This document shows, one piece after another, positions 1 to 52,590 of a DNA stretch of 64,000 nt. How positions within the stretch are numbered: the first letter of the stretch is position 1; the number at the start of each line of letters is the position of its first letter. The notes beneath the pieces are model-generated. The model was given only the letters and a program-made list of their open reading frames with translations, was not told the DNA's origin and did not search any database. This DNA is from Selaginella tamariscina. Lineage: Eukaryota; Streptophyta; Lycopodiopsida; Selaginellales; Selaginellaceae. Where the stretch lies: contig PUQB01000238.1 in assembly GCA_003024785.1 (NCBI GenBank), forward strand, positions 38,916 through 102,915, read 5' to 3'. The position numbers and the translations under genes were made by a program.

Positions 1-620
1 TTTAATTGTTCCTACATTTACTGGGATTTTCTAGCTTTTTTATTATTATCATTTCTTAATGATATTTAAGATTAAACATTGTTTAATCTACATATCATAT
101 ATCGTTGGGATATACCCAATCATATTGCCCTCTCAATTACATGTGAAACTTGATAATTTAACTTAAAATTTCTCAAGGAGTTAGTGTGTATATTAATATT
201 TTTTTAAATTTAATTTATAAAATCTATTTATAAATATAAATTATTTAATGTATGTTTTATATATAAATCTCATGGATATTAAGGTGCAAAAAGTTAGTAA
301 CTCTGTAATGTACTTATATTATATATTAATTTATTATGAAGTTATTATATTGTAAGGTTCCATGGTATATACTGCATATATATGCCATGTCCATGTGGAA
401 GATTCAAGCACACTAATCTGGGCGTTAGGATTTATGTGGCACCAAGTAAGTTAATCCTGGCGCAAACACTTAGTATAAATACCTTGTATGAGTCAAGACC
501 TAATCGAATCATATTTGGTATTCACATATCTTTCATTGGTGGAGAGGTTGGTTAGTCCTTTGAAGATTTAGTTTTTTTATGTTTTTTTGTCTCCCTCTCC
601 ACTTGTTGTTCTTGTTCGTG
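1..620. other. Unit leader, no gene found
   Basis: AT-rich DNA without a supported coding region. A TATA-like motif (TAGTATAAATACC) lies at 471-483, followed by a more mixed-composition stretch leading into the gag-like remnant at 621. This could be the remains of a retrotransposon leader or LTR, but no second LTR copy was found. Equivalent stretches lie at 19554-20175 and 39111-39732. Confidence 0.4.
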
Positions 621-1260
621 ATGACGAATGAAGAAAGGTGGTTGCAATTATTTGATGCACTGGCAAATCAAATTGCTCTCCTATGGGAAATTCACCAAGG
701 TATGCAGTAGAATGCCAGTATGCCGTGGAGTGTCAATCCACATATGTTGGGTTAAAATCCACGTGTTCGTCCAGAGTTCTTCAAGGGGGAGGTTAGAGCA
801 CCATTGATGGGAACACTTTCAAGGGATTACTGATTACTAATTACTATGGATGGTCTAAATCCTAGCGGTTGCGAGAATTCCCAATGTGTTTGCAAGGACT
901 TGCCTTGGAATGGTATAATGGTGTCCCTGTTTTCAATCGACAAGATTGAAACCTCTTGTCCTAGCTATTCAAACAAGCTTTTGGTAAGCCCAAGGATTCC
1001 ATTGTAGCTTTTCGTGAGCTCCATGATTTGAAGTAAGTGTCAGAGAGATCGTTTAACGATTTGGATCAAGTTTCGGAATTTTTGTGCATACCCAAGCATG
1101 ATAGAACGTGTACAGTTGGGCTTGTTGTGAACGCTTCATTAGGTTGTAGTCATAAAACATCTTGATGGGGAGGCCAAAGCGTTAGTGAATCCTTGTGTGG
1201 AAGATGAAGTGTAAGTTCTTTTGGTTTGTGAATTCACTTTAACTTTGTAATAGACTTGGC
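621..1260 (+). pseudogene. Decayed retrotransposon gag-like region, unit A
   Basis: An ATG at 621 opens a reading frame beginning MTNEERWLQLFDALANQIAL, which hits stops within about 30 codons. Further protein-like pieces appear in shifted frames, for example a tract LALEWYNGVPVF near 900-940 followed by an alternating hydrophobic stretch. Tryptophan-tyrosine tracts of this kind are common in capsid parts of plant Ty3/gypsy gag, so I infer a broken gag. Several stops and frameshifts are present, and no nucleic-acid-binding Cys knuckle was seen. It precedes an old LTR-element insertion at about 1690, so it may be the 5' part of the element whose integrase remains at 7.9-8.7 kb. Assignment to gag is tentative. 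Confidence 0.45.
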
Positions 1261-1689
1261 AAAAAGCACGACAAGATCTCATTGAGGCCTAGGAACATTA
1301 TCGAAAGTTGTAAAATACTCTTCTAGAAGCTTTATAAAAGAAACTTGCACCTCAATATGTGGGTCCTCATGAAATTCTATAATAGATTAGTGAGGTGTCC
1401 TATGAATAAGATTTATCAAAAGAGTTTGATTAACTCATAATGTGTTTCATATAAGTTTACTTGAGTTGTTTCGACATGATGACCCACGCCCTTTTTGATA
1501 TGAAAGTTTGAGATTTGCTCCAATGGCAGTTGATAATAAAACCAGAATACGAGGTGTTAATGATTTTAAAATCATTTAAAATGCTCAATGGCAAATAAGG
1601 AAATATCTTGTCAAGTAAGTATTGTAATTATACTTACATATCATGGTTTAACATGATTTGTGTTTTGATATCCACATTGCAAAGCTACT

Positions 1690-4600
1690 TGGGAACCTGT
1701 TGCGAATTGCTAATAGCCCACATCTAGGGACATAGTGTCACATGAAGATGTGACACTAGGCTAAATGGCACATAATACAATGTCCGAGGCACGCTCTTTG
1801 GGGTTGTCTCATGGGCTCAATACCAAGGAGTTGGATACTCTAACAAGTAAGCATGCTTGTGCTCACATTAGAGTGTTAAGCCTTGAGCAATTGCTTAAGG
1901 GAGGTTAGGTCTCCTAATTGGATGTGTTATCTACACACTTGGTTAAAGAGAGGGGTCTTCTCCTTGGGGTCAAAGAGTTGAACAACCTAAGCTCGTTAGG
2001 AAGAGCCTATTCATGAGGCACTTGCAAGGTTGTGTACTTAGGGTTATCCAAACTTAGCCTTGGAGAGTTTCCTTAGTAAAACACACATGTTTACCTATGG
2101 TGCATACTCGTGTCCTCACTAAGTATTAACCCGAAGTCTAGGGTATGACTTGCCCACTCAAACCCTTAGGGGTTAATTATGGATCAAGGTACTCCTTGTT
2201 GCTCAAAAGGGTTGTACTCCCGAACAAGGGTAATTTCTTAAGGAATAAGTGACAATGCCTTAGCTCTGTCACAGCAGGATGTGTGGGACACATTTCTTTA
2301 GTAGTGAATGTATAGCTTTTCAATGAGCGCTTCAATGTTGTAATGCATAGTGCATGACCAAAGGTCTATAATCGCATTTAGCACACACTATATCATTGAA
2401 ATCACCCTAAGAAAATTATACATCCTACATTGCATATACACATGTACTTTCATTCTAGGGAGACTTATGGTAGGACCCTAAGTCTCATACCATTTAAACA
2501 TCTGAGTTAGACTTTCAAAAGTTGTCTTGGAAGACTTAGCATTGCTCACACATATGGCCACGTGACAGTTATATGTTACCACGTGCTAGTCTTTTGAGTT
2601 AAAACTTTGACAATTGGTATTAAAGCCTATTCTATGTAGTTAATAAGACTATCTAAAGTGTAGTGTGTTTCAAAGTTTAATTAGTTCTAAGTTATTAAAG
2701 TACTTTATCACTTTTGACTAACACTTCTGTGTTCTACACGGAGAGTTGGTCCTGAAATTTATAACTCTTTAGAAAACACCTGCTTGGTAAGCTGGTGTGG
2801 GTTATAGACTCTAATGTTAAAGGTAGCACTCAAAAGGCAACTTTCAGGTTGCATGCTAAGTTACTTTACCCTCTATGTTTGTCTAGGTACTTTACCTTTT
2901 ATATTTATCTAGGTTACTTTACCTTATAGTTGTCTAGGTTACTTACCTTATGTTTGCCCATGTTATTTTACTTATGTTTATGCTGATTAATTTACCCAAC
3001 CTTCCACAAGACGTAGCAAGTTAGTTTGTTTTGGATTACAAATTAAGTCTTATGAAATGAATCATGTGATATGCTAAGTCTGCACATTATTGAATTTTAA
3101 ATTTTTTTTTTAAGGTTCATAAAATTGGGATAACATATGATTTATGAAGGAACAGTGTCCATTGAGTTTTGGCTTAGGTCAAAATTCAATATTGATTTGG
3201 CAATAGTGTTTAAACAGGGGTTCAAATATGCGTTTTTACTTTTAAAAAAAGAACATATTCAAACATAAGAGTGAAACTACATTCAAACAGAAAGTGCAAA
3301 ATGAGTTCTCACTATAACGCATGTTTTGAGAGTGTAACTCAAGAAAAAAAGTTAGTTATTAATATATGATCAATATGTTGAGTGGGCAGTTTGAAGGTGC
3401 AATGTAGTTGAAATATTGTTTGATGTTCGTAATCTCTAGATTTAAACAAAGTATAACATAAAATCTTAGTTAGTTGTAAACATAAACTCTGTGCTCAAGT
3501 TAGCTAACTTGGTTAATTTGATTACAATTGTATCCCATATGAGATCATAAAAGAAACTTGGGATAATAGATTATGAATTCACATTCTTATTGATATAGTT
3601 TTTGAGTAGATGGCATCATTTACTATAAACAGAAATATTGCAAATATACATTTATTGGGTAATGGAGAACTTGTATAATGAAGGCGTTTGGTGCACACTT
3701 ATGCATTTTCAATGTTAATTCTTTAATCTTGAAATCTGTAATGTTGCTTGTACTATGGGAATAAACTCTTGAACAAGGGTGATTCCTTGATTAACAAGAG
3801 CATCAGTTAAGGTTCTTCAATTTATTTATCAACTAAGTAAGGAAACTTGCTAAGTTAGATAAGTTATGTTTGGGGTGTTGATAAGCTAGAAATAGTTGGA
3901 TATTCATTTTGGAGGTTTAAGTGCATGTACCTTCTTAAAAGGTTAATGTCTTGTGAGATTTAAAAGTCGGTGTTGATTTTTGATATCAACTTCATCTTAA
4001 AGTGGATTGTGATTATTTAAAAGTTGGTTTCTTTACTTTACATCATGGTTGCAAATGTGGGCACTCAGAGAATATACAAAGTGTGTATCTTCAATCCTCT
4101 AAAATATTAGGAAGTGGGTTTGATGGTGTTTCTTGACTTTGGTTTAATATAAGTGAAAGTACGATATTGAATGGCTAAATTAACTCAAGAAGATAGTGTC
4201 CCTTCTCGATGATCATAATCCAAGATCCCTAATGTATAATCTGATATCCGATTCGAAAATATAAGGTTTTTTATTATCTCATCTGTTGAGATATTTATAT
4301 TCTAAACTTTGAAAATATTTATGACAGTCTTTATAAGATTGGTTATAAATAACTTAAAGTATGATATAATATATATTAAATATTGAGATTGGTGCACTCA
4401 ATATTGAGACTTAATTATGATCACATGAGGTGGCTATAATTATGAAATAGAAATATTCAAAATGAGGGATTGAATTGTAACACTTTAGTAAGGTAGTACT
4501 TTGGTGTTGTAGCTTGAAATGCGATCTTCAAATTACTTAAAAATTAAGAAAAAGTTTCTCAATATATTCATTGGGGAGCTATGTAATACTTTGTGGGATT

Positions 4601-5600
4601 GCTATGTGTCTAAAATGAGTAATGTATCTTAGTTTGTTGTATAGAACTAGATATTTTACTTACGTTTGGAGAGTTTAATTGACTTATGAGATATAGTTGA
4701 AGTGTGAAGTTAATACGACACTTTGGTGTCATGGTAACATTAATGTGGAGGTTGATATTTTTACTAAATCAAGTTAGATAAACCAAATGCTAATTCATGA
4801 TTTCTTTAGTCCCTAAATGGCATCTCGAAATATTAAAAGTAACATTATGTTCCATCTCAAGCTGAAGTTCAATTCATATTAACTAAGTCTAAATCTTCAT
4901 AGTACAATTCTTGCATTTCGATAAATTGATATGATTATAAAGTCATATACGCTAATGTAACAACTTGTCAGTAAATTTGGGATTGTGATCGTTATCAGTT
5001 TGAGAGTATCAATATAGAAATTACAATTACTTTTGAAATATGGATTAATTTAAAGGTGTTTGTCAAAACACTAATTACTCGAATTAGTGAAGAAGTTATA
5101 CCTTGATATAACTTTGGAGAAAATGTTTACATAATCAATTTGAGAGTTGAAAAATAGTTATAATGTTATAAAGATATGCAGTATTACGAGTTCAGGGAGA
5201 CTCTTGTCGTGGGAATTAAGTTTTTAAATTTAGTATGTGAACTTAATGAGATAAGAATTAAAAATTATTAAATGAACCTAGTTGTTGTGCTTTTCAAGAA
5301 ATGAGTATAATAGGAACGAATTAGTTAAGACACATTGATATCTAGACGGTTGAGGCATTAGATATAGATTGAGTTTTCTGGTTTCCACATCGGTTTGTTA
5401 GAAAGGTATGTTAATTTATATATGTCCATGAACGGGTCGATGTTTTGAAAGAGTATAAAGCCGGTTATGAAAGGAAAATGGTAGTGCTATGTCATTTGGT
5501 CATAGATTTAACTTAAATTTGATTTTCATTATGAATGAAATTATGTTAATGACACACCAAGTGGATGGGCAAATTTCATGTTGATGAGACCTTGTTGTAT
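1690..5600 (+). mobile_element. Old truncated non-autonomous LTR element, unit A
   Basis: 1690-2612 matches, with many substitutions, the 3' two-thirds of the young LTR at 8718-10547. It keeps the hairpin AGTGTCACATGAAGATGTGACACT near 1736-1759 and ends ..AAAACTTTGACA. A degenerate initiator-methionine primer-binding site follows (TGGTATTAAAGC, 2615-2626, 10 of 12 positions). The remainder parallels the young element's internal region up to about 5600, where similarity stops abruptly. No protein is encoded and the 3' LTR is missing. Its divergence from the 8718-15946 element shows a much earlier insertion of the same family. Confidence 0.8.
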
Positions 5601-5960
5601 TTTACAAGAATATTTTGTTATAAAAAATATTCTTTTTCATAGGAATATTTGTGTTATAGAAATATTCTGTCTCATAGGAATATTCTTTTTCTCCTAAATA
5701 TTCCTCCCTAAAATAGAATCAATTATTTTAGATCTTTAGGTATATCTGTTGATTGTTTCTCATCGTCCGAGATATACTCAGGGAGATCTCATTCTTGAAG
5801 ATGAATGTTCATCTCTTCTCCTATCTGCATACTATCATGTGATGGATACACATAATTTCTTTCTTCTGCAGTAAGGTATTCCTGTTTTGATTTTTTTTAA
5901 TTTATTTTTATATAAGTAACTGCTCTCACGGCAGAATGATTTTTTACTTCTCTCTCCTCC
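5601..5960. repeat. AT-rich region with AGGAATATTC-type inverted motifs
   Basis: Between 5604 and 5712 the motifs AAGAATATT, AATATTCTT and ATAGGAATATT recur in both orientations, giving several possible hairpins. From 5713 to 5960 no coding signal was seen. Equivalent stretches are about 25155-25515 and 44731-45085. A decayed MITE or part of the adjoining element's leader are both possible. Confidence 0.45.
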
Positions 5961-6007
5961 ACATCAATTAATCTAGCTCCAAGATGACGTTTAGGAGCAT
6001 TATTTGA

Positions 6008-7290
6008 AATAGAAGGTTGATTCTTCAACCTTTACATAATACTCTCATGAACACGTCTGCACTTGAGGCTACTTGGGAATATGAGAGGCATTGTCAGCAG
6101 CCTGTACAAAAAACAGATGGCCCTGTTGAGAGTTCAGGTTCAGTGGAGGGATCTAGCTCAAATAGTGTATATGTGTCCTCAATATCAAATAAGCTTCCTT
6201 GTCATTTGCTTTTACAGATGGATAATTGTGCAGGCGAGAACAAAAATAGGTAAATCATTTTACTTAAGGGTTTCTCAAGCTCATACTTACTTTTATTTTC
6301 TAGATATGTGCTAGCATACTTGTCAATGCTTGTTGCCAAAGGTGTGTTTGAGACAATCACACTCAGTTTTCTTATGGTTAGTCACACTCATGAAGATATT
6401 GATGCGTTCTTTAACAAGGTCTTCAACTCTACAAAAAGGACAAGTGCACTTACCTTACCGCATATGATGAATCTTTTTGAAAACTGCATCTCCAAAAAAA
6501 GTTGTGCTTTGCTTGTGACTGAGGTGCTAGACTTCAAAAAATTTCTCAAGGAGTATATAAAAGAGGGGAGTGATTCTTTAGTTGGTCACCTTGTGCCACT
6601 ACAATTCTTTTTCTCCATACGAGATGGTATACCTATTATGCAGTACAAGTTATGTCCATCAGAGCAGGAGTGGTTACCAAAAGAGGGTTAATGCTCTTCA
6701 AAAGTGGAGAGAATGGAAAGCCACTTCTCCCAGAAGGACAACCAGACCCTATTCCATTGAGTGTCCAGCTCAAGGAACAAGAGGTTATTATTGATGGCAT
6801 CAAAAAATATGTGGCATGAGTTTAAAAATCGATGCCAAAGAATTCTGATAAGGCAACTGGTTACTCAGAACTATATAAACATGTGGTCGACTATTGGGAG
6901 ACTGTTGTTCGAGAGTTGAAAGGGCCTATTGTCACAAGTACAGAATTGCAACACCCTTTTTGGCCTAAAACAAAGTGGCGAGAGGAGATTGAAATGACAT
7001 CATTGAGCACAGACGACATAAAAGCCAGTAATGATGTGGAAGTGCAAACCCCACACTTTGTTGAATAAAGAAACCAAAAACCTAAAGCATACTTTGATTG
7101 TTACCAGGATCTTCAAAACTAATGATAGTTCTCATTACTCCAAATGTGTCATATAATCATCCTATTTGGATGGCTCAAATTATTGACACACCTGAAGTAA
7201 TAAAAAAAAATAGTATTGTTAAGGTTGCATAGTTCAAACTACAACAAGGGTGACACGAGAAGGAGAGCGAAAGATATAATGGATGCCTAG
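6008..7290 (+). pseudogene. DUF7869-type gene, decayed, unit A
   Basis: Exon 1 is open from 6008 to 6249 and ends in the motif QMDNCAGENKNR. It is followed by a 54-nt intron (6250-6303, GTAAAT..TTTTCTAG) and exon 2 from 6304, containing a conserved HTHEDIDAFF motif. The pair DNxxxENKN and HTHEDID is what I recall for the DUF7869 family, found in many eukaryotic repeat-associated genes; its activity is unknown, and conserved acidic and His residues would suit a nuclease or transposase fold (inference). The frame breaks at 6691 through loss of one G, compared with unit B. Further protein-like tracts follow to about 7290, including an IWM(A)QIIDTP stretch that could be the start of a BAH-like domain. 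No clear start codon was found. The flanks are retrotransposon remnants. Confidence 0.6.
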
Positions 7291-7439
7291 AGAAAACATG
7301 GTCTCCCAATCAAAAAGACCCAGATGTTTTATAAATGTTAAATCCATTCGATATGGGTGGATGTCAAGAAGCGTTAATAAAGTTACAATTAACAAAACTG
7401 CAAGGGAATGTATGTTTTCTGCAGCTTAAAGCAATTACA

Positions 7440-7890
7440 AAATTATAAAATATCATATATTTAATATTCATAATTATTATAAACTCTTTAATAATAGTAC
7501 CAAATTGTTTACTTAACTATATAAATTTAAAAAACGATATGGAAGATTGACTATATTATTATAGGATTTTGTATATTATATATATATTACTACTACAAAT
7601 TTTTAATTAGTAATGTTTATTTAAATATTAATATTTAATAACAACATCAATATTTATATAATGTACCTCTTATGCTCTTCCTTAATTGTTATATTAGGCA
7701 ATATTATATAATTTAATACTTTTTACTTTTATAATGTTATTAATTTTTGTTTAATGAATGCTATAATTTATTAAAGGGTCGAATACAAAATAGAATAATA
7801 TGTTTTCAAACATATATTCTAAAGAATATTCCTTTAATATTAAAAAATGTTAATTAAATAGCTAAAATTGTTAATTATTAGGAAATGGGA
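7440..7890. other. AT-rich spacer, nothing identified
   Basis: Very AT-rich DNA with long A/T runs and no coding or RNA gene signal. Equivalent stretches are about 26990-27435 and 46555-46995, with small indels between units (for example in the ATATATAT tracts near 7576, 27129 and 46697). Confidence 0.6.
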
Positions 7891-7892
7891 CT

Positions 7893-8717
7893 ATAGCCAT
7901 GCCCATTTTAGTTACAACTTGCATTTTAGTGAAATGTCGATTCTTCTAGCCTAACATGAAGGAGGACATTGTGAAGTATGTTCGCATTTGTGCTAAGTGC
8001 CAGTTGGTTAATGCTGAGAGAGTGGCTCACTAACGCCTTTGGAAGTGCCTTAAGGAATACGGAAGAGTATCTCTATGGATTTTATTACACATCTTCTAAG
8101 AACACTATGTTGCAATGAACATGTGTGGGTCATTGTGAATCGCTGAGCAAATATGTTAAGTTCATTCTTTTGAGGAAGAATGTAATATCGAAGGAGCTCA
8201 CATTGGTGTATCTAATGCAGGTGTATCATGAGTGTGGAATGCCAGAGAACACCGTTAGTGACCGAGACAGCAAGTTCACTTCTGCATTTTGAGTGAAGTT
8301 TTATAGAGTACTCAGCACTAAGGTGAACTTTAGTAGTGGAGATCACCCGCAATTAGATGGCCAGACTAAGCGTGTGAACCAAGTTCTAAAGGATATGTGT
8401 GGCTAAGAAGCAAGGACAATGGGACAAGTTTTTGCCTTTGGTTGAGTTTGCCTATAACAACAGTAAGCATAGCTCTTTGAAATGCAGTCCATTCTATGCT
8501 TACAAAGGCAGACATCCTCAGTCTCTAGTAGATGTTAAAATACGTTGGGAAGTGGTGAGAGAGGATGTTGAAGCTCATAGTTTGGTTATGAAGTTGGATG
8601 ATATACTTCTAATGTGTTGGAAGAATTTGCTTAAGGCAAGGGACCAAGCTAAAGGCTAGCCGCCTTGATATGCTAGTCTATATAAGATCCTTGATAATAT
8701 CAATGCTGTAGCTTACA
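7893..8717 (+). pseudogene. Ty3/gypsy integrase remnant, 5' part, unit A
   Basis: Translated pieces match the integrase order of plant Ty3/gypsy elements: an ICAKCQ zinc-binding half near 7986, a MDFITHL core start near 8075, a VSDRDSKF tract, a DGQTKRVNQ tract, and a WDKFLPLVEFAYNNSKHSS tract near 8420. Breaks are visible. A stop replaces the usual Trp in two places (TAG near 7948, TGA near 8290), and the usual catalytic Glu before RVNQ is a Lys. Unit A also has 1-nt losses near 8143 and 8395. No active enzyme is possible. The coding trace is interrupted at 8717 by the young LTR element and resumes at 15947. Confidence 0.85.
8713..8717. repeat. 5-bp target site duplication, left (TTACA)
   Basis: TTACA directly precedes the 5' LTR and recurs at 15947-15951 after the 3' LTR; it is single in unit C. 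Confidence 0.95.
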
Positions 8718-10547
8718 TGTCATAGTTTTTACTATGACTCGACCCTTTACTTTGGACGTTGACTGTTGTTACCTACTGTACTATGTTGATGGACCCTAGA
8801 TGTAGTAGGAAACAGGCCCGCTTAGTGCACTTGGGTATCTGGTGATTCCGGCCGGGTGTCATTAGGTATTTGCAGAAACTCTAAGCGAAGCTAGAACTTA
8901 CCTTCTAGAAACCCACCCCCAATTTTGACGTCTTGAATAGGTTGTTTGGTCTTTGCAAATGAGTTCGGCGTGTTAAGTAGGGTTAGGAACACCCCTAGGG
9001 TTGACCTAACCCTAGGGTTGCCCTAACCCACGCCCTAAAACCCCCACCCCCTTGGGTAGGGTTTAGGGGTAGGAGTAAGGGTGAGTTATAGGCTCATATT
9101 GCTAATTTATCTAAGGGGCTAGAATTCAGTGCCAGCCCACTAATACAAACAGGAAAAGGGGGGGGGGGGGGGGCTCCGTCACATAAATAAGGTAGAGTAT
9201 ACGTAGGAGAGCTCCTGGGTTCATGAATGAGTTCGTTGCTCTTCTGCCGGTGCAAGCTTCAGCTTGTGTCGTTAAGGTACAACCCTCTGTTGTGCCGCCC
9301 TAACTTCCAGATGCCAGGGGTACGTCCCACCTTCGGGGTAGCTTACCCTTAACGTTGGCGAATCCATGCCTGGGAGGTCTTGTGGAATGCACGTTCCAAG
9401 AGGCAGAGGTTGAGGCTTGTCTCCAGCCTCCTCCTCCACGTCAAGCTAGGTGTAGCACTCACGGCCAAGCAAGGCACATCCGTGTCCTTGTCCAACTGTG
9501 GGCGTGGGATCTTGTTTGACAGGTTCACGTTACCTGGTTCCTGAGGGTTCATTGAGGGTTCTAGAGTTGGCATTTAGGAACCATGTTTGTGGTACTTGGT
9601 GCAACTCTTGAATCTAAGGGCTATGGCATGATAGCCCACATCATGGAAGGCAGTGTCACATGGAGATGTGACACTGGGCTAAACGTCACATGGTACAACG
9701 CCCGAGGCACGCCCTTTGGGGTTATGTCATGGGCTTGTCCTAAGGGGTTGGATACTCTAGCAAACAGGCATGCTTGTGCTTGCACTAGGGTGCTAAGCCT
9801 TGGGCATCCGCTCAAGAGAGGTTAGGTCTCGTAACTAGGTGTGCTTTGGCACACTTGGCTAGGGGAGTGTTCTCCTTGGAATCCAGGGTTGAACAACCTA
9901 AGCTCATTAGCAAAGCCCTTTCGTAAGGCACTCGCAAGGTCATGTGCTTAGGGTTATCCCAAACCTAGCCTTAGGGAGTTTGCTTAGCAGAACACTCGTG
10001 TCCGCCTACGGCGCACACTCGTGTCCTCACTAAGTACTAGCCCTAGGTCTAGGGTATAACTTGGCCACTCAAACCCTTAGGGGTTAGTCGTGGTTCAGGG
10101 TACCCCTTGTCGCCCTAAAGGGGTTGTACTCCCGGATGAGGGTGATTCCTCAAGGGGTAAGTGACGATGCCTTAGCTCTGTCTAGGGGTATGTGTGGAAC
10201 ACACGTCTCCTTGATGGGGGTTAGGGCATGAGCCTGTCTAGGTCTTCTAGGGCAAGACCCTAAGTCAACTAGGGTTATCCCTCAAGGGTTTTGGGGCAGA
10301 CACTCTAGGGAGACTTAGGCTAAACCCTAAGTCAACTAGGGTTATCCCTCAAGGGTTTTGGGGTAGACACTCTAGGGAGACTTAGGCTAAACCCTAAGTC
10401 TCCTGTCCACTTGGGCATTAGAGTCTAACCTAGGGGTCGTTGGGTTGTTCTGGGAAACTTAGCGTTGCTCACAGGGTGATGACGCCGAATGGCCACCTGG
10501 CAGCCACGTGTTGCCACGTGTTGGCCCTTTGGGTTAAAACTCTGACA
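8718..10547 (+). repeat. 5' LTR of the young element, unit A
   Basis: Notable parts are a perfect terminal hairpin GTCATAG-TTTTTA-CTATGAC (8719-8738); a cluster of AACCCTA/CCCTAA telo-box-like motifs (8978-9072); a run of 16 G (9158-9173) just before a TATA-like CATAAATAAGG (9181-9191), where transcription probably starts downstream; a hairpin CAGTGTCACAT-GGAG-ATGTGACACTG (9651-9676); and a 67-bp direct duplication (10262-10395). Small open frames inside are not supported as genes. Confidence 0.93.
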
Positions 10548-10549
10548 AT

Positions 10550-10561
10550 TGGTATCGGAGC
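10550..10561 (+). other. Primer-binding site, initiator-Met tRNA type, unit A
   Basis: TGGTATCGGAGC starts two bases after the 5' LTR and matches 11 of 12 positions of the TGGTATCAGAGC motif complementary to the 3' end of plant initiator-methionine tRNA. Confidence 0.9.
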
Positions 10562-14215: not shown

Positions 14216-14229
14216 AAAGGCGGGGAGTG
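14216..14229 (+). other. Polypurine tract of the young element, unit A
   Basis: AAAGGCGGGGAGTG directly precedes the TGTCA start of the 3' LTR, as expected for the plus-strand primer. Confidence 0.8.
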
Positions 14230-15946: not shown

Positions 15947-15951
15947 TTACA
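15947..15951. repeat. 5-bp target site duplication, right (TTACA)
   Basis: TTACA follows the 3' LTR and pairs with 8713-8717. Confidence 0.95.
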
Positions 15952-16085: not shown

Positions 16086-16170
16086 AATAACTTGACGTAA
16101 GAAAGAATTGTTAATGTAAATCTTTGCAAAGTCAATTGGTCTTTGAGGGACTTCTTATAGGGGGGAAAAA

Positions 16171-17480: not shown

Positions 17481-17498
17481 TGTCAGTGTGCATGCAAT

Positions 17499-17555: not shown

Positions 17556-17573
17556 GCATTGTACTAATGCTTG

Positions 17574-35646: not shown

Positions 35647-35731
35647 AATAACTTGACGTAAGAAAGAATTGTTAATGTAAATCTTTGCAAAGTCAATTGG
35701 TCTTTGAGGGACTTCTTATAGGGGGGAAAAA

Positions 35732-40370: not shown

Positions 40371-40803
40371 GGCAAAAAGCACGACAAGATCTCATTGAGG
40401 CCTAGGAACATTATCGAAAGTTGTAAAATACTCTTCTAGAAGCTTTATAAAAGAAACTTGCACCTCAATATGTGGGTCCTCATGAAATTCTATAATAGAT
40501 TAGTGAGGTGTCCTATGAATAAGATTTATCAAAAGAGTTTGATTAACTCATAATGTGTTTCATATAAGTTTACTTGAGTTGTTTCGACATGATGACCCAC
40601 GCCCTTTTTGATATGAAAGTTTGAGATTTGCTCCAATGGCAGTTGATAATAAAACCAGAATACGAGGTGTTAATGATTTTAAAATCATTTAAAATGCTCA
40701 ATGGCAAATAAGGAAATATCTTGTCAAGTAAGTATTGTAATTATACTTACATATCATGGTTTAACATGATTTGTGTTTTGATATCCACATTGCAAAGCTA
40801 CTT

Positions 40804-43800
40804 GGGAACCTGTTGCGAATTGCTAATAGCCCACATCTAGGGACATAGTGTCACATGAAGATGTGACACTAGGCTAAATGGCACATAATACAATGTCCGA
40901 GGCACGCTCTTTGGGGTTGTCTCATGGGCTCAATACCAAGGAGTTGGATACTCTAACAAGTAAGCATGCTTGTGCTCACATTAGAGTGTTAAGCCTTGAG
41001 CAATTGCTTAAGGGAGGTTAGGTCTCCTAATTGGATGTGTTATCTACACACTTGGTTAAAGAGAGGGGTCTTCTCCTTGGGGTCAAAGAGTTGAACAACC
41101 TAAGCTCGTTAGGAAGAGCCTATTCATGAGGCACTTGCAAGGTTGTGTACTTAGGGTTATCCAAACTTAGCCTTGGAGAGTTTCCTTAGTAAAACACATG
41201 TTTACCTATGGTGCATACTCGTGTCCTCACTAAGTATTAACCCGAAGTCTAGGGTATGACTTGCCCACTCAAACCCTTAGGGGTTAATTATGGATCAAGG
41301 TACTCCTTGTTGCTCAAAAGGGTTGTACTCCCGAACAAGGGTAATTTCTTAAGGAATAAGTGACAATGCCTTAGCTCTGTCACAGCAGGATGTGTGGGAC
41401 ACATTTCTTTAGTAGTGAATGTATAGCTTTTCAATGAGCGCTTCAATGTTGTAATGCATAGTGCATGACCAAAGGTCTATAATCGCATTTAGCACACACT
41501 ATATCATTGAAATCACCCTAAGAAAATTATACATCCTACATTGCATATACACATGTACTTTCATTCTAGGGAGACTTATGGTAGGACCCTAAGTCTCATA
41601 CCATTTAAACATCTGAGTTAGACTTTCAAAAGTTGTCTTGGAAGACTTAGCATTGCTCACACATATGGCCACGTGACAGTTATATGTTACCACGTGCTAG
41701 TCTTTTGAGTTAAAACTTTGACAATTGGTATTAAAGCCTATTCTATGTAGTTAATAAGACTATCTAAAGTGTAGTGTGTTTCAAAGTTTAATTAGTTCTA
41801 AGTTATTAAAGTACTTTATCACTTTTGACTAACACTTCTGTGTTCTACACGGAGAGTTGGTCCTGAAATTTATAACTCTTTAGAAAACACCTGCTTGGTA
41901 AGCTGGTGTGGGTTATAGACTCTAATGTTAAAGGTAGCACTCAAAAGGCAACTTTCAGGTTGCATGCTAAGTTACTTTACCCTCTATGTTTGTCTAGGTA
42001 CTTTACCTTTTATATTTATCTAGGTTACTTTACCTTATAGTTGTCTAGGTTACTTACCTTATGTTTGCCCATGTTATTTTACTTATGTTTATGCTGATTA
42101 ATTTACCCAACACTTCCACAAGACGTAGCAAGTTAGTTTGTTTTGGATTACAAATTAAGTCTTATGAAATGAATCATGTGATATGCTAAGTCTGCACATT
42201 ATTGAATTTTTTAAATTTTTTTTTAAGGTTCATAAAATTGGGATAACATATGATTTATGAAGGAACAGTGTCCATTGAGTTTTGGCTTAGGTCAAAATTC
42301 AATATTGATTTGGCAATAGTGTTTAAACAGGGGTTCAAATATGCGTTTTTACTTTTAAAAAAAGAACATATTCAAACATAAGAGTGAATACTACATTCAA
42401 ACAGAAAGTGCAAAATGAGTTCTCACTATAACGCATGTTTTTGAGAGTGTAACTCAAGAAAAAAAGTTAGTTATTAATATATGATCAATATGTTGAGTGG
42501 GCAGTTTGAAGGTGCAATGTAGTTGAAATATTGTTTGATGTTCGTAATCTCTAGATTTAAACAAAGTATAACATAAAATCTTAGTTAGTTGTAAACATAA
42601 ACTCTGTGCTCAAGTTAGCTAACTTGGTTAATTTGATTACAATTGTATCCCATATGAGATCATAAAAGAAACTTGGGATAATAGATTATGAATTCACATT
42701 CTTATTGATATAGTTTTTGAGTAGATGGCATCATTTACTATAAACAGAAATATTGCAAATATACATTTATATGTTTAGTTTATTGGGTAATGGAGAACTT
42801 GTATAATGAAGGCGTTTGGTGCACACTTATGCATTTTCAATGTTAATTCTTTAATCTTGAAATCTGTAATGTTGCTTGTACTATGGGAATAAACTCTTGA
42901 ACAAGGGTGATTCCTTGATTAACAAGAGCATCAGTTAAGGTTCTTCAATTTATTTATCAACTAAGTAAGGAAACTTGCTAAGTTAGATAAGTTATGTTTG
43001 GGGTGTTGATAAGCTAGAAATAGTTGGATATTCATTTTGGAGGTTTAAGTGCATGTACCTTCTTAAAAGGTTAATGTCTTGTGAGATTTAAAAGTCGGTG
43101 TTGATTTTTGATATCAACTTCATCTTAAAGTGGATTGTGATTATTTAAAAGTTGGTTTCTTTACTTTACATCATGGTTGCAAATGTGGGCACTCAGAGAA
43201 TATACAAAGTGTGTATCTTCAATCCTCTAAAATATTAGGAAGTGGGTTTGATGGTGTTTCTTGACTTTGGTTTAATATAAGTGAAAGTACGATATTGAAT
43301 GGCTAAATTAACTCAAGAAGATAGTGTCCCTTCTCGATGATCATAATCCAAGATCCCTAATGTATAATCTGATATCCGATTCGAAAATATAAGGTTTTTT
43401 TATTATCTCATCTGTTGAGATATTTATATTCTAAACTTTGAAAATATTTATGACAGTCTTTATAAGATTGGTTATAAATAACTTAAAGTATGATATAATA
43501 TATATTAAATATTGAGATTGGTGCACTCAATATTGAGACTTAATTATGATCACATGAGGTGGCTATAATTATGAAATAGAAATATTCAAAATGAGGGATT
43601 GAATTGTAACACTTTAGTAAGGTAGTACTTTGGTGTTGTAGCTTGAAATGCGATCTTCAAATTACTTAAAAATTAAGAAAAAGTTTCTCAATATATTCAT
43701 TGGGGAGCTATGTAATACTTTGTGGGATTGCTATGTGTCTAAAATGAGTAATGTATCTTAGTTTGTTGTATAGAACTAGATATTTTACTTACGTTTGGAG

Positions 43801-44730
43801 AGTTTAATTGACTTATGAGATATAGTTGAAGTGTGAAGTTAATACGACACTTTGGTGTCATGGTAACATTAATGTGGAGGTTGATATTTTTACTAAATCA
43901 AGTTAGATAAACCAAATGCTAATTCATGATTTCTTTAGTCCCTAAATGGCATCTCGAAATATTAAAAGTAACATTATGTTCCATCTCAAGCTGAAGTTCA
44001 ATTCATATTAACTAAGTCTAAATCTTCATAGTACAATTCTTGCATTTCGATAAATTGATATGATTATAAAGTCATATACGCTAATGTAACAACTTGTCAG
44101 TAAATTTGGGATTGTGATCGTTATCAGTTTGAGAGTATCAATATAGAAATTACAATTACTTTTGAAATATGGATTAATTTAAAGGTGTTTGTCAAAACAC
44201 TAATTACTCGAATTAGTGAAGAAGTTATACCTTGATATAACTTTGGAGAAAATGTTTACATAATCAATTTGAGAGTTGAAAAATAGTTATAGTGTTATAA
44301 AGATATGCAGTATTACGAGTTCAGGGAGACTCTTGTCGTGGGAATTAAGTTTTTAAATTTAGTATGTGAACTTAATGAGATAAGAATTAAAAATTATTAA
44401 ATGAACCTAGTTGTTGTGCTTTTCAAGAAATGAGTATAATAGGAACGAATTAGTTAAGACACATTGATATCTAGACGGTTGAGGCATTAGATATAGATTG
44501 AGTTTTCTGGTTTCCACATCGGTTTGTTAGAAAGGTATGTTAATTTATATATGTCCATGAACGGGTCGATGTTTTGAAAGAGTATAAAGCCGGTTATGAA
44601 AGGAAAATGGTAGTGCTATGTCATTTGGTCATAGATTTAACTTAAATTTGATTTTCATTATGAATGAAATTATGTTAATGACACACCAAGTGGATGGGCA
44701 AATTTCATGTTGATGAGACCTTGTTGTATT
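40804..44730 (+). mobile_element. Old truncated non-autonomous LTR element, unit C
   Basis: Copy of the 1690-5600 remnant; the old LTR part ends at 41723. It is nearly identical to the A and B copies, with an A-to-G change near 44292 among very few substitutions. Confidence 0.8.
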
Positions 44731-45134
44731 TTACAAGAATATTTTGTTATAAAAAATATTCTTTTTCATAGGAATATTTGTGTTATAGAAATATTCTGTC
44801 TCATAGGAATATTCTTTTTCTCCTGAATATTCCTCCCTAAAATAGAATCAATTATTTTAGATCTTTAGGTATATCTGTTGATTGTTTCTCATCGTCCGAG
44901 ATATACTCAGGGAGATCTCATTCTTGAAGATGAATGTTCATCTCTTCTCCTATCTGCATACTATCATGTGATGGATACACATAATTTTTTCTTCTGCAGT
45001 AAGGTATTCCTGTTTTGATTTTTTTAATTTATTTTTATATAAGTAACTGCTCTCACGGCAGAATGATTTTTTACTTCTCTCTCCTCCACATCAATTAATC
45101 TAGCTCCAAGATGACGTTTAGGAGCATTATTTGA

Positions 45135-46412
45135 AATAGAAGGTTGATTCTTCAACCTTTACATAATACTCTCATGAACACGTCTGCACTTGAGGCTACT
45201 TGGGAATATGAGAGGCATTGTCAGCAGCCTGTACAAAAAACAGATGGCCCTGTTGAGAGTTCAGGTTCAGTGGAGGGATCTAGCTCAAATAGTGTATATG
45301 TGTCCTCAATATCAAATAAGCTTCCTTGTCATTTGCTTTTACAGATGGATAATTGTGCAGGCGAGAACAAAAATAGGTAAATCATTTTACTTAAGGGTTT
45401 CTCAAGCTCATACTTACTTTTATTTTCTAGATATGTGCTAGCATACTTGTCAATGCTTGTTGCCAAAGGTGTGTTTGAGACAATCACACTCAGTTTTCTT
45501 ATGGTTGGTCACACTCATGAAGATATTGATGCGTTCTTTAAAGGTCTTCAACTCTACAAAAAGGACAAGTGCACTTACCTTACCGCATATGATGAATCTT
45601 TTTGAAAACTGCATCTCCAAAAAAAGTTGTGCTTTGCTTGTGACTGAGGTGCCAGACTTCAAAAAATTTCTCAAGGAGTATATAAAAGAGGGGAGTGATT
45701 CTTTAGTTGGTCACCTTGTGCCACTACAATTCTTTTTCTCCATACGAGATGGTATACCTATTATGCAGTACAAGTTACGTCCATCAGAGCAGGAGTGGTT
45801 ACCAAAGAGGGGTTAATGCTCTTCAAAAGTGGAGAGAATGGAAAGCCACTTCTCCCAGAAGGACAACCAGACCCTATTCCATTGAGTGTCCAGCTCAAGG
45901 AACAAGAGGTTATTATTGATGGCATCAAAAAATATGTGGCATGGTTTAAAAATCGATGCCAAAGAATTCTGATAAGGCAACTGGTTACTCAGAACTATAT
46001 AAGCATGTGGTCGACTATTGGGAGACTGTTGTTCGAGAGTTGGAAGGGCCTATGTGTCACAAGTACAGAATTGCAACACCCTTTTTGGCCTAAAACAAAG
46101 TGGCGAGAGGAGATTGAAATGACATCATTGAGCACAGACGACATAGAAGCCAGTAATGATGTGGAAGTGCAAACCCCACACTTTGTTGAAAAAGAACCAA
46201 AAACCTAAAGCATACTTTGATTGTTACCAGGATCTTCAAAAACTAATGATGTTCTCATTACTCCAAATGTGTCATATAATCATCCTATTTGGATGGGTCA
46301 AATTATTGACACACCTGAAGTAATAAAAAAAATAGTATTGTTAAGGTTGCATAGTTCAAACTACAACAAGGGTGACACGAGAAGGAGAGCGAAAGATATA
46401 ATGGATGCCTAG
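45135..46412 (+). pseudogene. DUF7869-type gene, decayed, unit C
   Basis: Copy with the intron at 45377-45430. It has Gly rather than Ser before HTHEDID. Private lesions are a 2-nt loss at about 45541 (TTCTTTAAAGG) and a 1-nt loss in CCAAAGAGG near 45806. Downstream, a frame continuous from 45795 to 46205 is preserved where A and B are interrupted. A last open stretch, 46221-46412, has the IWMGQIIDTP tract and may be a BAH-like domain remnant. This is the least eroded version of the 3' half and the one most useful for family assignment. Confidence 0.6.
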
Positions 46413-47009
46413 AGAAAACATGGTCTCCCAATCAAAAAGACCCAGCATGTTTTATAAATGTTAAATCCATTCGATATGGGTGGATGTCAAGAAGCGTTAT
46501 AAAGTCACAATTAACAAAACTGCAAGGGAATGTATGTTTTCTGCAGCTTAAAGCAATTACAAAATTATAAAATATCATATATTTAATATTCATAATTATT
46601 ATAAACTCTTTAATAATAGTACCAAATTGTTTACTTAACTATATAAATTTAAAAAACGATATGGAAGATTGACTATATTATTATAGGATTTTGTATATTA
46701 ATATTATTATTACTACAAATTTTTAATTAGTAATGTTATATTTAAATATTAATATTTTAATAACAACATCAATATTTATATAATGTACCTCTTATGCTCT
46801 TCCTTAATTGTTATATTAGGCAATATATTATATAATTTAATACTTTACTTTTATAATGTTATTAATTTTTGTTTAATGAATGCTATAATTTATTAAAGGG
46901 TCGAATACAAAATAGAATATATGTTTTCAAACATATATTCTAAAGAATATTCCTTTAATATTAAAAATGTTAATTAAATAGCTAAAATTGTTAATTATTA
47001 GGAAATGGG

Positions 47010-47973
47010 ACTATAGCCATGCCCATTTTAGTTACAACTTGCATTTTAGTGAAATGTCGATTCTTCTAGCCTAACATGAAGGAGGACATTGTGAAGTATG
47101 TTCGCATTTGTGCTAAGTGCCAGTTGGTTAATGCTGAGAGAGTGGCTCACTAACGCCTTTGGAAGTGCCTTAAGGAATACGGAAGAGTATCTCTATGGAT
47201 TTTATTACACATCTTCTAAGAACACTATGTTGCAATGAACATGTGTGGGTCATTGTGAATCGCTTGAGCAAATATGTTAAGTTCATTCTTTTGAGGAAGA
47301 ATGTAATATCGAAGGAGCTCACATTGGTGTATCTAATGCAGGTGTATCATGAGTGTGGAATGCCAGAGAACACCGTTAGTGACCGAGACAGCAAGTTCAC
47401 TTCCGCATTTTGAGTGAAGTTTTATAGAGTACTCAACACTAAGGTGAACTTTAGTAGTGGAGATCACCCGCAATTAGATGGCCAGACTAAGCGTGTGAAC
47501 CAAGTTCTAAAGGATATTGTGTGGCTAAGAAGCAAGGACAATGGGACAAGTTTTTGCCTTTGGTTGAGTTTGCCTATAACAACAGTAAGCATAGCTCTTT
47601 GAAATGCAGTCCATTCTATGCTTACAAAGGCAGACATCCTCAGTCTCTAGTAGATGTTAAAATACGTTGGGAAGTGGTGAGAGAGGATGTTGAAGCTCAT
47701 AGTTTGGTTATGAAGTTGGATGATATACTTCTAATGTGTTGGAAGAATTTGCTTAAGGCAAGGGACCAAGCTAAAGGCTAGCCGCCTTGATATGCTAGTC
47801 TATATAAGATCCTTGATAATATCAATGCTGTAGCTTACAAGTTGAGGTTGCCTGAGAGAGTGCAACTACATCCTTTGTTTCATGTGAGTCAACTAAAGAG
47901 GACTCTTGTATGTGGAGAAGTACTAGTACACTCACTTGAAGAGTTAAATGAGTTTGACCAAAAAGATGTTTGA
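47010..47973 (+). pseudogene. Ty3/gypsy integrase remnant, uninterrupted, unit C
   Basis: Same remnant without the nested element; the tail follows directly through GTAGCTTACAAGTTGAGG. It carries the shared stop near 47411 and the Lys in place of the catalytic Glu, plus private substitutions (CTGAGAGAGTGCAACT near 47850, GAGGACTC near 47897). Confidence 0.85.
47826..47846. other. Empty insertion site of the young LTR element
   Basis: Unit C reads GTAGCTTACAAGTTGAGG, with one TTACA. Units A and B read GTAGCTTACA, then the element, then TTACAAGTTGAGG. This is the pre-insertion allele and fixes both element ends to the base. Confidence 0.95.
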
Positions 47974-48058
47974 AATAACTTGACATAAGAAAGAATTGTT
48001 AATGTAAATCTTTGCAAAGTCAATTGGTCTTTGAGGGACTTCTTTTAGGGGGGAAAAA

Positions 48059-48545
48059 TGTTACAATCGAATGTTGGTCCTGGTCTTGGTCAAAGGTTGA
48101 CTATGATTGATTTCATAGTTAAGCTAATTACATGGCTAATTAAGCATATCCTAATTTTAATTGGGGAGATCCTAATTTTGGAGAGCAACAAGAGTGTAAT
48201 AACTTTTGAGTATGGAGTTCAACTTGCTAGAGCTTGGGAGTGAGCTAGAGTGGTTTAAGGTTGGACAGTGAGTTAGGTAGCATTTGAGAGTGGAGTTAAC
48301 CTGCTACAACTTGGGGGTGGGCGAGTTAGGCAACATTCAGGTATGGTGCTGCAGGAGTGTAACACCGTATAAGGTACTCTTAAAGTGATGGTATTCCACT
48401 GTCACGGAGAGAGGTGGTGGACAGCAGGCGAATCAACAGTGAAGAGGAAGCACTATAGAACCCTTGGTTAACACTTCTCTTTGAGGACTTGGTTGTAAAA
48501 CCTTACGTTGATAATGAAAATGCCCCAGTTTTAAAAAAAAAGAAT
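48059..48545 (+). repeat. Putative 3' LTR of the decayed gypsy element, unit C
   Basis: Diverged copy with a 19-bp extra segment near 48470 (TAACACTTCTCTTTGAGGAC) that A and B lack. Confidence 0.5.
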
Positions 48546-49667
48546 TAGAAGAAAAACTCTAGTTTTAAAAAAAGAAAAACCAAACTTGATTTCTACTTTG
48601 CCGATCTTTAACGTCGCATATTAGAGTGTTGGCGATTGCAGATTACATGGGCCAATCTTGTCTATTCCATGTGATTCACTGCATACATATATACAAGTTA
48701 TTATTAACATTAACATTTGGACCTGTTAGCATTTATAAGACTCGAACATAAATACTACCATATCTATAAAAAAAACAAAGTATGACATATGACCACATGC
48801 CTATGATCCTTCCAAGTCAAAGACCCAAAAGCATACTCAACCTTAATAGACTTGAAAGCTAATTTTGCACGACTTGGTCTGTGTCTTCCTTTTCAGGCAC
48901 TACAGTAGCACTCGCGCCTTCTGGAGCTTAAACACTGACTTTGTATATCGACCTATGGTCACCAACGATTTTAACCTTCCTATAAACTGTTCACCGCAAT
49001 CGGAGGATGGTTGAGATCAACATATAAGACGGATACTGGTTGTACTAGTTGAAAAATGCAATATCATGGGTCATATCATATACCAGACCTGAGCATTTGA
49101 TGAACATTACCGCCACAGTCAAATGGTGTTCCCTCGATGTGGCCAGCCCTTGAAGAAGGCCATTGAAGTTCCACATTTATAATACATAAACATTCCATAA
49201 GTTTTACTTACAGTCATTTCAAACTTTTTTAAAGTATAATAATTACAAAATTACACTTTTGAGATGCATTCAGGACATTATTCATATTGGATATGTTATT
49301 TTGTATAATTCGAGTTGATTTTGATTTTTTACGTACGAATTCTATATATTTTACAAATGTTGGTGTTTTACTAAACCAGATACATGTTTTATGCGTATAC
49401 AATAACTATTACAGCCACCACTAGATCCTCTTCGCAGTTAATACAATTACCCAATTATAAATAATTATAAGAATTGCATGTCAGTGTGCATGCAATTTTA
49501 TTCAGCTTTCATATTACATACTTCCCAAGGAAGAACAACCTAACTGTTTTATTGCATTGTACTAATGCTTGTTAAGTACATGTAAATGACATTCTTGAGG
49601 ATGACAACCACGAGCTTGAGGAGCACATAAATAAGAGAGTTCACCGGAAGGCTAAGGAGAATCCCAT

Positions 49668-50161
49668 TCAGTGTAGCAAAACGCTCAGAAGCAGATTGAG
49701 ATCAGAAACCTTGAGCTTAATTATCGCCGCTGTATGTAATACACAATGTAAATACAAACGCACACACACACACACTCACTTACCAAGCACATGGATGAGG
49801 CCAACATCCAGAATTAGCTTAATCTTGAGGCTAAGCAGGATCTTAATGCTGGTTAAGACGGATATGCAGGTTATTTGACCAGTTAAGATGTCGAGGATGA
49901 TCTGAAGTACGACAACTATGCCGCTCAGGAGCGTCGCTAACAGCGGATAAACCCCGCAGAGAGTTGTTAAGTTTTTGATGATAAGCTGGAGTTTAACTGC
50001 TAAATCCACAGCAATAGTTGCATTGATTCCCAAACCTCCCAAAATATCGGACGTTGGATCTGCTTTTAGCTTCCTCATTGCACCTTCCAAAAAGCATGAT
50101 TAACTTGTGTTAATGAAAGAGAGAGAAAATATTAAAATTTATAAAGTTAACTTTTTTCTTC

Positions 50162-50221
<60 letters not shown>

Positions 50222-50610
50222 GTGATAAGTAATATATTCCCTGACATATTAATTGGTTTATGAGTTATTAACCAAGTAGTTAATATTTCATTATCTATGT
50301 GTATAAATTTGAAATGATGAGTTTATTAAGCAGCAGAACATAATAATGGTAAAAGACAGCTCAAACTAAATAACATCAAAAAAATAAACATATTACATCA
50401 ATATGAACTTGTAGGTTAATTTTATTGAATTATGTAAAAAATTAATGTAAATGTAATAGTTATTATTAATTATTATTATTTACCATTAAAGTGCTCCTCT
50501 ATGTCACTAAGTTCAGGATCGTAAGCATCATCCACTGCTTGAGTAACAAAACTCAAGCATGCAACCAAAGTGAGTAACAGAAATGCATTGCGTGTAGAAA
50601 TTATTGCCAT
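49668..50610 (-). CDS. Secreted hydrophobic protein, C-terminally truncated, unit C
   Basis: Exons 50610-50484, 50083-49784 and 49729-49668. Exons 1 and 2 are intact, with two replacements in exon 2 (Ser59 to Gly, Asp80 to Asn). In exon 3 one base is lost at the site reading GCAAGAACG in A and GCAAAACG here (about 49680). The frame shifts and stops at 49668, giving 162 residues and losing the last hydrophobic block. A further 2-nt loss lies near the original stop (about 49578). Intron 1 carries an expanded TA repeat. It could still yield a shorter secreted protein, but is probably a decaying copy. Confidence 0.65.
50165..50216. repeat. Expanded (TA)n repeat in intron 1 of the unit C gene
   Basis: About 25 TA repeats, against about six in the equivalent place in unit A (18159-18171) and unit B (37719-37731). 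It lies inside intron 1, away from splice sites. Confidence 0.9.
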
Positions 50611-50819
50611 TCCAAAACAAACTAAGCAATTAATTCAAATGTCTTTCTATATACACATATAATGTTATGCTTCTTTTTATACTCAACGAAATGTATACGT
50701 GGAAGATTGATGATGTCACACTATTCCTGGTTGGTCACACGTGTATACCTTGTCAGACTACTTTAGAAAATATGGCCGTTTACAAAATCATATATTAATT
50801 GAAATAATATATAAACACG

Positions 50820-52590
50820 TAAAAGATGTTTGGTGAATTTTTTTTATAATTTTTTTCAGATAAGTTCATTTGGTACCGTTAGACAATGCATTGACGATGG
50901 TGTTGCATGGACATACATGGCGTATATATATTACATTTAATAACTATATGTTTAATAAAATAACACAATCGTTTTACGTGGAATTCTCTTTATATAAAAT
51001 AAAATCGTTACCATATTTGAGTTATTAAATTGAAGTTAATTCTTTATTATACATGTGTACGTTCATACGTCAGCATGTGTAAACGTACTTCACGTAGATA
51101 CATATTGTTTAAGAAGTTTATGCATGATGTGTGTGTAGGCGCGTTTGTGCATATTTAACTGACACTCGACAAATTAAACGTTGCACCAAACAGTCCCGAA
51201 GGACGCAAGGAAGCTCGTGTTAAGCATCCTCCATGTAGAATATTACATGATAAGATAACTCTATATATTTAATATTTACTTATTTTAATTTTACGTCCAT
51301 AAAATTATGCTTCCTTTTTTTTGGTGGTGTGCCCATAACTACCATACTAGCATATATTTCTATACGTCGTTTGTATCTCACAATACCTAGAGCTACATGT
51401 ACGTACACAAACGCAGACACACACACACACATGTATGTGTGTGTGTGTGTGATGTTTTCAGAACCAAACTATGCTCCATGCATTTCTATCTCTACCTGTC
51501 TACGTAGGTGTTAATCAGAGGCATATAATTAGAATATGTTTAATTGTTCCTACATTTACTGGGACTTTTTAGATTATTATCATTTCTGAATGACATTTAA
51601 GATTATCATATATTGTTGGGATACACCCAATCATATTGCCCTCTCAATTGTTTTAATTTAATTTCTAAAATCTATTTTATAAATATAAAATTGTTTACTG
51701 TATGGTGCAAAAAGTTAGTAACTCTGTAATGCACTTATATTAATTATATATTAATTTATTATGAAGTTATTATATATTTATAAGAAAAACACATAATGAA
51801 TAGTTTTAACTTCAAGGGACAACATGTGGCAACACCTAATTTAAAGACCATTTATGTTCAAATTTTCAACCATACAACAGACTTAAGAGTGTTTACCCTA
51901 AAAACATAAAGAGGAAAACCTTATCTAACATGTATTAACCTACCTTAAAGTTGTATGTTCTTATATATACTTCCATTGTGAGCATCATAAACACATTTCT
52001 TCAAAGCAACATATTCAAAAACTCTTTCTCATTTGAGCTAACTTAAAAATGTGTTTCTAAGTTATACCTCATATAGTGGTCATAATCGTGAGATGGACAT
52101 ACACAAAACATATTTGAATATGACACTTTAATATGTAATGCTTTAGTGTTCTTGTCAGAGTACACATTCCACTAGTTAAAGGTTGAAGCATGTTTCCAGC
52201 CTCCTCTACATCAAGCTACCAAGCTATAATATTCAATAAATACTATATCATATTTCATTTATTACTAATCTTAAAGAGATAATTGTAAATACTTTTAAAG
52301 TCTAGAATATAAATATCTTAATAAATGAAGTGATAGAAAACTTTATATTGTCGAATTGGATACCAGATTATACATTAAGAACTCACTTATCATGATTGTC
52401 AAAAAGGAAAACCATTTTCTTGAGTTGACTTCATGAAAGTTGTGAACATGTACGATGTTAATGGTTGTTGTAAATAAAGTTATTTGAATTTGCAAAATAC
52501 TGAACACAATGATCTCGTATAGGGATAAAAATATAGGGAGCATTATTCAAATTGTTTAGTACAACATATCTTTCTCAAAGATGGTCAAAG
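50820..52590. repeat. Left arm of a large inverted repeat
   Basis: The sequence from the gene-C upstream flank through unit D start to about 52590 recurs as reverse complement at 62520-64000. Shared landmarks are the CA/TG microsatellite, GGGACTTTTTAG, GGTGCAAAAAGTTAGTAACTC, and TACTAAACAATTTGAATAATGCTCC. The left arm holds an extra few hundred bases of inverted old LTR-element interior at about 52170-52440. Confidence 0.85.
51539..51835. repeat. Truncated start of a fourth unit (D)
   Basis: Begins with the same TTTAATTGTTCCTACATTTACTGGGA phase as the other units and follows them through the GGTGCAAAAAGTTAGTAACTCTGTAATG stretch near 51704. Near 51780-51835 it diverges into rearranged DNA. 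It shares variants with the unit C tail and with the inverted arm (GGGACTTTTTAG, CTGAATGACATTTAAG), unlike A and B. Confidence 0.85.

Follow-up and report, generated by a model that had tools for sequence, protein, structure and literature searches.

The window analysed here is a stretch of 64,000 nucleotides from Selaginella tamariscina (assembly GCA_003024785.1, 300,702,823 bp in 1,391 contigs), positions 38916-102915 of contig PUQB01000238.1, hereafter C547. It most likely holds a recent tandem segmental duplication, a copy-number variant (CNV) that is probably haplotype-specific, in which a 12.3-kb gene-bearing host segment and a 7.2-kb long terminal repeat (LTR) retrotransposon were multiplied by unequal crossing over. 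The process is an ordinary and well-known one, and the locus is a clear example of it, not a new kind of repeat. Below, "post" designates the 3.8-kb gene-bearing segment to the right of the insertion site, "pre" the remaining host DNA, and RT the retrotransposon; coordinates are those of the window unless a contig is named, and features lie on the plus strand unless stated otherwise. In these terms, C547 reads from left to right post1-pre-RT-post2-pre-RT-post3-pre-post4. A second contig, C1193, carries a short form, post1-pre-post4 without the element, its segments being called S1 (counterpart of post1), preS (of pre), and S4 (of post4).

Architecture of the array

Comparison of the window with itself returns direct, head-to-tail copies, positions 1-28278 matching 19554-47842 at 99.07% (46 mismatches, 150 gap openings) and 1-8720 matching 39111-47842 at 99.18%. 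A first-pass annotation, made from the letters of the window alone, had described three direct units in a common phase, the first two near-identical over 19.5 kb and each unit carrying one copy of a secreted-protein gene. The near-identity is confirmed, with 42 substitutions in 19,477 aligned bases between unit A (1-19553) and unit B (19554-39110), as are the direct orientation and the single gene copy per unit. Nine of these substitutions are isolated from every other difference, and 82 of the 101 indels between A and B involve a single base type. The third unit, C, does not fit the description: it measures ~12.5 kb, lacks the retrotransposon, and ends with a diverged gene segment, post4 (47835-51649, the right end of the array), which is ~90% identical by BLAST and departs from post2 by 3.1% substitutions and many indels. 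Extending the comparison to the 38.9 kb of C547 that precede the window places the start of the array at C547:35314, 3,602 bp outside it; as assembled, the array ends on both sides within ~55 kb, the right-hand homology stopping near 51649. Since the array begins 3.6 kb upstream, positions 19553 and 39110, previously taken for the junctions between units, only mark where the window edge would fall in the copies. The common phase and both junctions are artefacts of that edge, the true joints being located at 16551-16565 and 36112-36126. The locus carries the caution that borders read off a window edge are not unit borders.

The pre of unit A (1-8717), the left part of the unit's host DNA, contains old retroelement pieces and a degenerate DUF7869 fragment (PF25273, E value 4.8e-25, 6254-6691) that is repeated in units B and C and that we read as mobile-element-like. 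The post of unit A, the chimeric and gene-bearing post2, covers 15947-19760. The pre of unit B covers 19554-28275, its first ~0.2 kb being by homology the end of post2, and that of unit C covers 39111-47834. A 1.5-kb probe from the unit is matched at ~99% or more only three times in C547 and once in C1193, among the 40 scored of 5,509 candidates.

A single insertion, later duplicated

The LTR retrotransposon of unit A (7229 bp, 8718-15946) has TG...CA ends and two LTRs (8718-10547 and 14230-15946), and is bordered on both sides by the target-site duplication TTACA, the 5' copy of which occupies 8713-8717. The same insertion, with the same TTACA duplication, is found in unit B (7232 bp, 28276-35507). 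Unit C exhibits a clean empty site with a single TTACA (47835-47839) and no trace of the element, and the site is also empty in C1193. Comparison of the four LTRs yields 21 variable gap-free columns, of which 16 part both 5' LTRs from both 3' LTRs, three are private to the 5' LTR of B, and two to the 3' LTR of A. Because of this 5' versus 3' split, the divergence of the LTRs predates the duplication of the unit: a single insertion was aged by LTR change and duplicated later together with the unit. The two LTRs of unit A differ at 19 of 1,707 positions (1.11%), the 5' LTRs of A and B at 3 of 1,820, and post2 and post3 at 2 of 3,876. The proposal that transposon DNA and a host gene were amplified together and recently is thus borne out, the A/B divergence being far below that of the LTRs. 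At the rate used for Selaginella lepidophylla in PMC5750206 (1.3e-8 per base per year), the insertion would be roughly 0.4 million years old and the last duplication less than 0.1 million, assembly error making both figures rough. The LTR family is of high copy number, with main matches at 91% or more in the 40 candidates scored of 6,275, two of them in C547 itself. Between the LTRs, no open reading frame (ORF) of 110 aa or more was found that could represent gag-pol, and the inserted element would be non-autonomous or decayed.

A chimeric gene segment

The post2 and post3 segments are chimeras of the two other gene segments. At 125 gap-free positions that separate post1/S1 from post4/S4, they give identical strings: the first 59 sites comprise 55 of post4 type, two of post1 type, and two of neither, while all 66 sites to the right of the joint are of post1 type. 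One breakpoint accounts for 121 of the 125 sites, as compared with a maximum of 84 in 2,000 shuffles (Fisher p 4e-33), and indels of at least 5 bp switch type at the same spot; under the same classification, post1, S1, post4, and S4 display no break. The switch from post4 type (left) to post1 type (right) lies at 16551-16565 in unit A and, identically, at 36112-36126 in unit B. To the left of it, post2 differs from post4 at 9 of 605 positions and from S4 at 10 of 590 (post4 and S4 differ at 6 of 590); to the right, 13 of 3,230 positions separate it from post1 and 8 of 3,250 from S1 (post1 and S1, 13 of 3,240). The chimera is at allele-level distance from each of the four segments, and no assembled allele is therefore its exact source. 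The hybrid segment sits in register between the flanking paralogues, as a product of unequal crossing over should, and its joint resembles what such an exchange between post4 and post1 would leave. A tract of ~985 bp (17058-18043, offsets 1112 to 2097), over exon 3, most of exon 2, and downstream DNA, is devoid of diagnostic differences between the post1 and post4 types, which suggests a likely earlier gene conversion between them. The crossover may just as well have taken place in this tract, with conversion extending leftward up to the switch, as at the switch itself.

The short form

The left flank of the array has a counterpart on C1193. Three blocks at 97.3-98.6% align C547:11190-42349 colinearly with C1193, where the segment 620001-667092 follows the order of C547 from 11190 up to the array, and C547:1001-4000 corresponds to C1193:609800-612786 at 98%, the next best match being at 86%. 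The comparison covers ~27 kb within the first 35 kb of C547, namely 1001-4000 and the part from 11190 onward. Substitutions between counterparts amount to 0.36% for post1-S1, 1.39% for post4-S4, and 0.57% for the pre of unit C and preS, versus 4.7% between post1 and post4. For S. tamariscina, a table in PMC8558194 gives a genome of 150 Mb and an assembly of 300.73 Mb, made from PacBio data with Falcon; an assembly of twice the genome size would contain both haplotypes. From this and the colinear left flank, C1193 is probably the other haplotype. An assembly that keeps both haplotypes can expose a copy-number variant.

The gene and its family

Each unit carries a single minus-strand copy of a gene with three exons. 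The copy of unit A (17574-18598; exons 18598-18472, 18090-17791, and 17734-17574) encodes 195 residues that begin with a signal-peptide-like stretch and include a long hydrophobic part, the splice sites and the signal peptide having been read by eye. That of unit B (37130-38158) is open in all three exons, that of unit C (49572-50610) is frameshifted in exon 3 in C547 and open in C1193, and a fourth copy is located upstream of the window (C547:36955-37973). By segment, the reading frame is intact in post2, post3, and, on C1193, S4, while frameshifts affect all three exons of post1, exons 2 and 3 of S1, and exon 3 of post4; these can be read either as decay or as assembly error. Pfam returned no family for the 141-aa and 195-aa forms of the product, and the search of solved structures gave one match (E value 0.78) that we take as chance. 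An AlphaFold2 model of exon 2 alone is mostly helical, but with a mean predicted local distance difference test score of 63.6 it is too weak to use.

Exon 2 has 36 matches on eight contigs (C547, C1193, C201, C1083, C1095, C16, C896, and C513), corresponding to fewer than 36 copies since some are split. Five pairs of exon 2 in opposed orientation, ~7.5 kb apart, are found on C1083, C201, and C1095, and further copies of the gene segment, mostly at 83-92% and often in opposed orientation, on C1083, C201, C1095, C16, and C1193:498922-506507, pointing to a family that may have been shaped by repeated inverted duplication. No inverted repeat of at least 200 bp was detected in either of two 10-kb pieces of C1083, each searched on its own, the two opposed genes lying in different pieces. 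Among eight copies of exon 2, the ratios of nonsynonymous to synonymous change (1.03-1.52 against the C513/C896 paralogues; 0.46-0.69, on few changes, between the C547/C1193 and the C1083/C16 copies) give no clear sign of selection either way. It is a rather improbable reading that a lineage-specific, fast-evolving secreted-protein gene is being amplified under selection on one haplotype via retrotransposon-tagged exchange between chromosomes, haplotype divergence feeding new copies.

History of the locus and alternatives

Two features make the order of events legible: the retrotransposon, which marks some of the chromosomes, and the preserved joint. An old tandem duplication gave rise to post1 and post4, diverged gene segments separated by pre, which is the arrangement displayed by C1193. 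One retrotransposon then entered the site between pre and post4 on some chromosomes, as the target duplication, the empty site, and the LTR pattern indicate; since post4-type sequence adjoins the element, it presumably sat in front of post4. Subsequently, post4 of an element-bearing chromosome would have recombined with post1 of an element-free one to yield post1-pre-RT-4/1 chimera-pre-post4. While the chimera is observed, its partners are deduced: they were most likely an element-bearing and an element-free chromosome because unit C keeps a clean empty site. The 12 informative 2:2 sites in pre are consistent with this: 11 pair A with B against C with preS, one pairs A with preS against B with C, and none pairs A with C against B with preS. 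A second unequal exchange, within near-identical units, may finally have copied the element-bearing unit to give post1-pre-RT-chimera-pre-RT-chimera-pre-post4; as the joint is identical in post2 and post3, this second event would have copied the product of the first. The gene would have been carried along with the unit, resulting in two extra open copies. The locus offers a worked case in which an old duplication, an insertion, an unequal exchange, and a second exchange are readable in order from one assembly.

Several observations weigh against this history. The count of two element-bearing units is that of the assembly (probably PacBio/Falcon), in which A and B differ mostly by single-base-type indels and by only nine isolated substitutions. 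These differences fit long-read error and would be expected if the assembler had walked one unit twice, or joined haplotypes out of register, so that the extra unit is not real. Moreover, changes private to the chimeras are few: post2 and post3 agree with each other and differ from all four other copies in only 4 of 3,441 gap-free columns, and S1 shares 7 of the 9 gap-free differences that separate the chimera from post1 to the right of the joint. If the DNA came from several pooled plants, the assembler may have joined more than two haplotypes. However, had the two assembled haplotypes been misjoined, the chimera would be an exact copy of their sequence, whereas it departs from post4, S4, post1, and S1 at allele level. 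Joining post4 to post1 would also need an overlap at ~90% identity, the pre of unit B is closer to that of A (0.23%) than to that of C1193 (0.85%), and clean substitutions separate A and B within the element, all of which make an assembly artefact quite improbable. The source of the chimera is constrained by the exon 3 frameshift that post1 and S1 have in common: because post2 and post3 lack it, the post1 donor was not exactly post1 or S1. The position of the switch is a further difficulty, as it falls inside a 13-bp identical interval amid DNA diverged by roughly 7-11%. On that count, a crossover would be likelier in the ~985-bp tract, and the joint may owe its position to a conversion tract or a template switch. 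Such an interval would suit a first duplication by replication-based, microhomology-mediated template switching instead of meiotic unequal crossing over. Yet the paralogous segments meet in register at the joint, as they would after homologous exchange, and near-identical units suffice for the second duplication, so that we regard template switching as rather unlikely.

Allelism of C547 and C1193 is challenged by their right flanks, which are not colinear, much of the match being inverted and mostly at 85-93%, and colinearity being confined to the left. Several pieces of C1193 (658.6-664.8 kb) match C547 97-103 kb (window 58.1-64.0 kb) in inverted orientation at ~85-93%, which might reflect an old inversion or paralogy; considered as an inversion polymorphism, the match is more diverged than the left-side alleles. 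A right-flank probe, which falls within a high-copy element (C547:112.5-119.7 kb), was uninformative on allelism. Together with the existence of other clusters of the gene family, the right flanks leave some room for two separate paralogous loci, i.e. segmental duplicates, but the ~27 kb of left flank colinear at 97-98.6% and an assembly of twice the genome size render this unlikely.

The first-pass annotation had instead read the array as a 19.55-kb macrosatellite and suggested a region of low recombination or of sex or centromere linkage. Units A and B are indeed direct, head-to-tail, and of nearly equal period, but the array as assembled ends on both sides within ~55 kb, holds two element-bearing units and one shorter one in place of many homogeneous units, and has a short form elsewhere in the assembly, which makes this proposal very improbable. 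Neither low recombination nor sex or centromere linkage finds support, the joint looking like a product of exchange. Selaginella is not known to have sex chromosomes. The genus is heterosporous with a bisexual sporophyte (PMC8360875), which argues against sex linkage.

Neighboring sequence

The right flank of the array contains ~6 copies of a 112-bp unit (60707-61358), a reverse transcriptase fragment close to them (60019-60408), and an inverted, diverged piece of the gene-bearing segment (62926-63998, minus strand), which stops where a run of 9,277 N (C547:102916-112192) directly follows the window. Beyond it, C547:112.5-119.7 kb comprises long ORFs in the high-copy element, a 3-kb probe of which has 32 full-length matches elsewhere at 94-99% (40 of 667 candidates scored); Pfam analysis of five ORFs of this region reports no convincing family, with one weak match below the cut-off. 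A direct repeat (C547:122713-124096 and 129931-131359, 86.8%, 7.2 kb apart) follows, the first copy of which contains an ORF matching the N- and C-terminal domains of chalcone/stilbene synthase.

Plastid-type psaA and psaB are found on C536, C605, and C1082 (569, 309, and 711 kb), the loci examined there having 52-53% G+C, and may represent nuclear copies or joined plastid pieces. In our reading of the alignment, the psaA translation departs at many places from the best PDB chains, from moss, as unedited C-to-U sites would. Selaginella plastomes are described as having 51-55% G+C and extreme C-to-U editing (PMC6590440). An initial reading of the array as a liverwort Y repeat was dropped once these plastid-type genes pointed to Selaginella.

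Comparison with known systems

The genus Selaginella has been reported to lack whole-genome duplication (PMC5750206), a view that the title of PMC11299036 questions. A literature search on such duplications by unequal exchange in S. tamariscina gave no paper naming the species among the ten listed of 162 matches, and our statement extends to these ten. Within the genus, a close likeness is with the haplotype-specific variants of S. lepidophylla, which PMC5750206 describes as LTR-rich indels of 4.8-85 kb, naming unequal crossing over between haplotypes as one source of genes. While these variants were surveyed as insertions and deletions, the present locus is resolved to its copies, its joint, and an order of events, and it is in line with the idea, put forward for that related species, that new gene copies arise when diverged haplotypes exchange DNA.

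Human macrosatellites such as D4Z4 likewise consist of large direct tandem units that vary in copy number and are in some cases gene-bearing, but D4Z4 comprises 8 to more than 100 units of 3.3 kb (PMC13138017), as compared with two full units and partial ones here. Units of this size had been called uncommon, which does not hold for plant CNVs, one table row of PMC4544587 giving a median of 18-23 kb and Rhg1 having a 31-kb unit in up to 10 copies. In the locus described here, by contrast with CNVs of the Rhg1 type, a retrotransposon tags some units, the chimeric joint is readable, only two units are full, and no phenotype is linked. The accessions in the table row just mentioned are presumably soybean. 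With soybean Rhg1, maize MATE1, barley CBF, and wheat Rht-D1c, as presented in PMC4544587, the locus nevertheless shares large gene-bearing direct repeats, the number of which varies between haplotypes or lines in those systems and probably does so here, and for CNVs of the Rhg1 type a recombination-based origin has been proposed as well.

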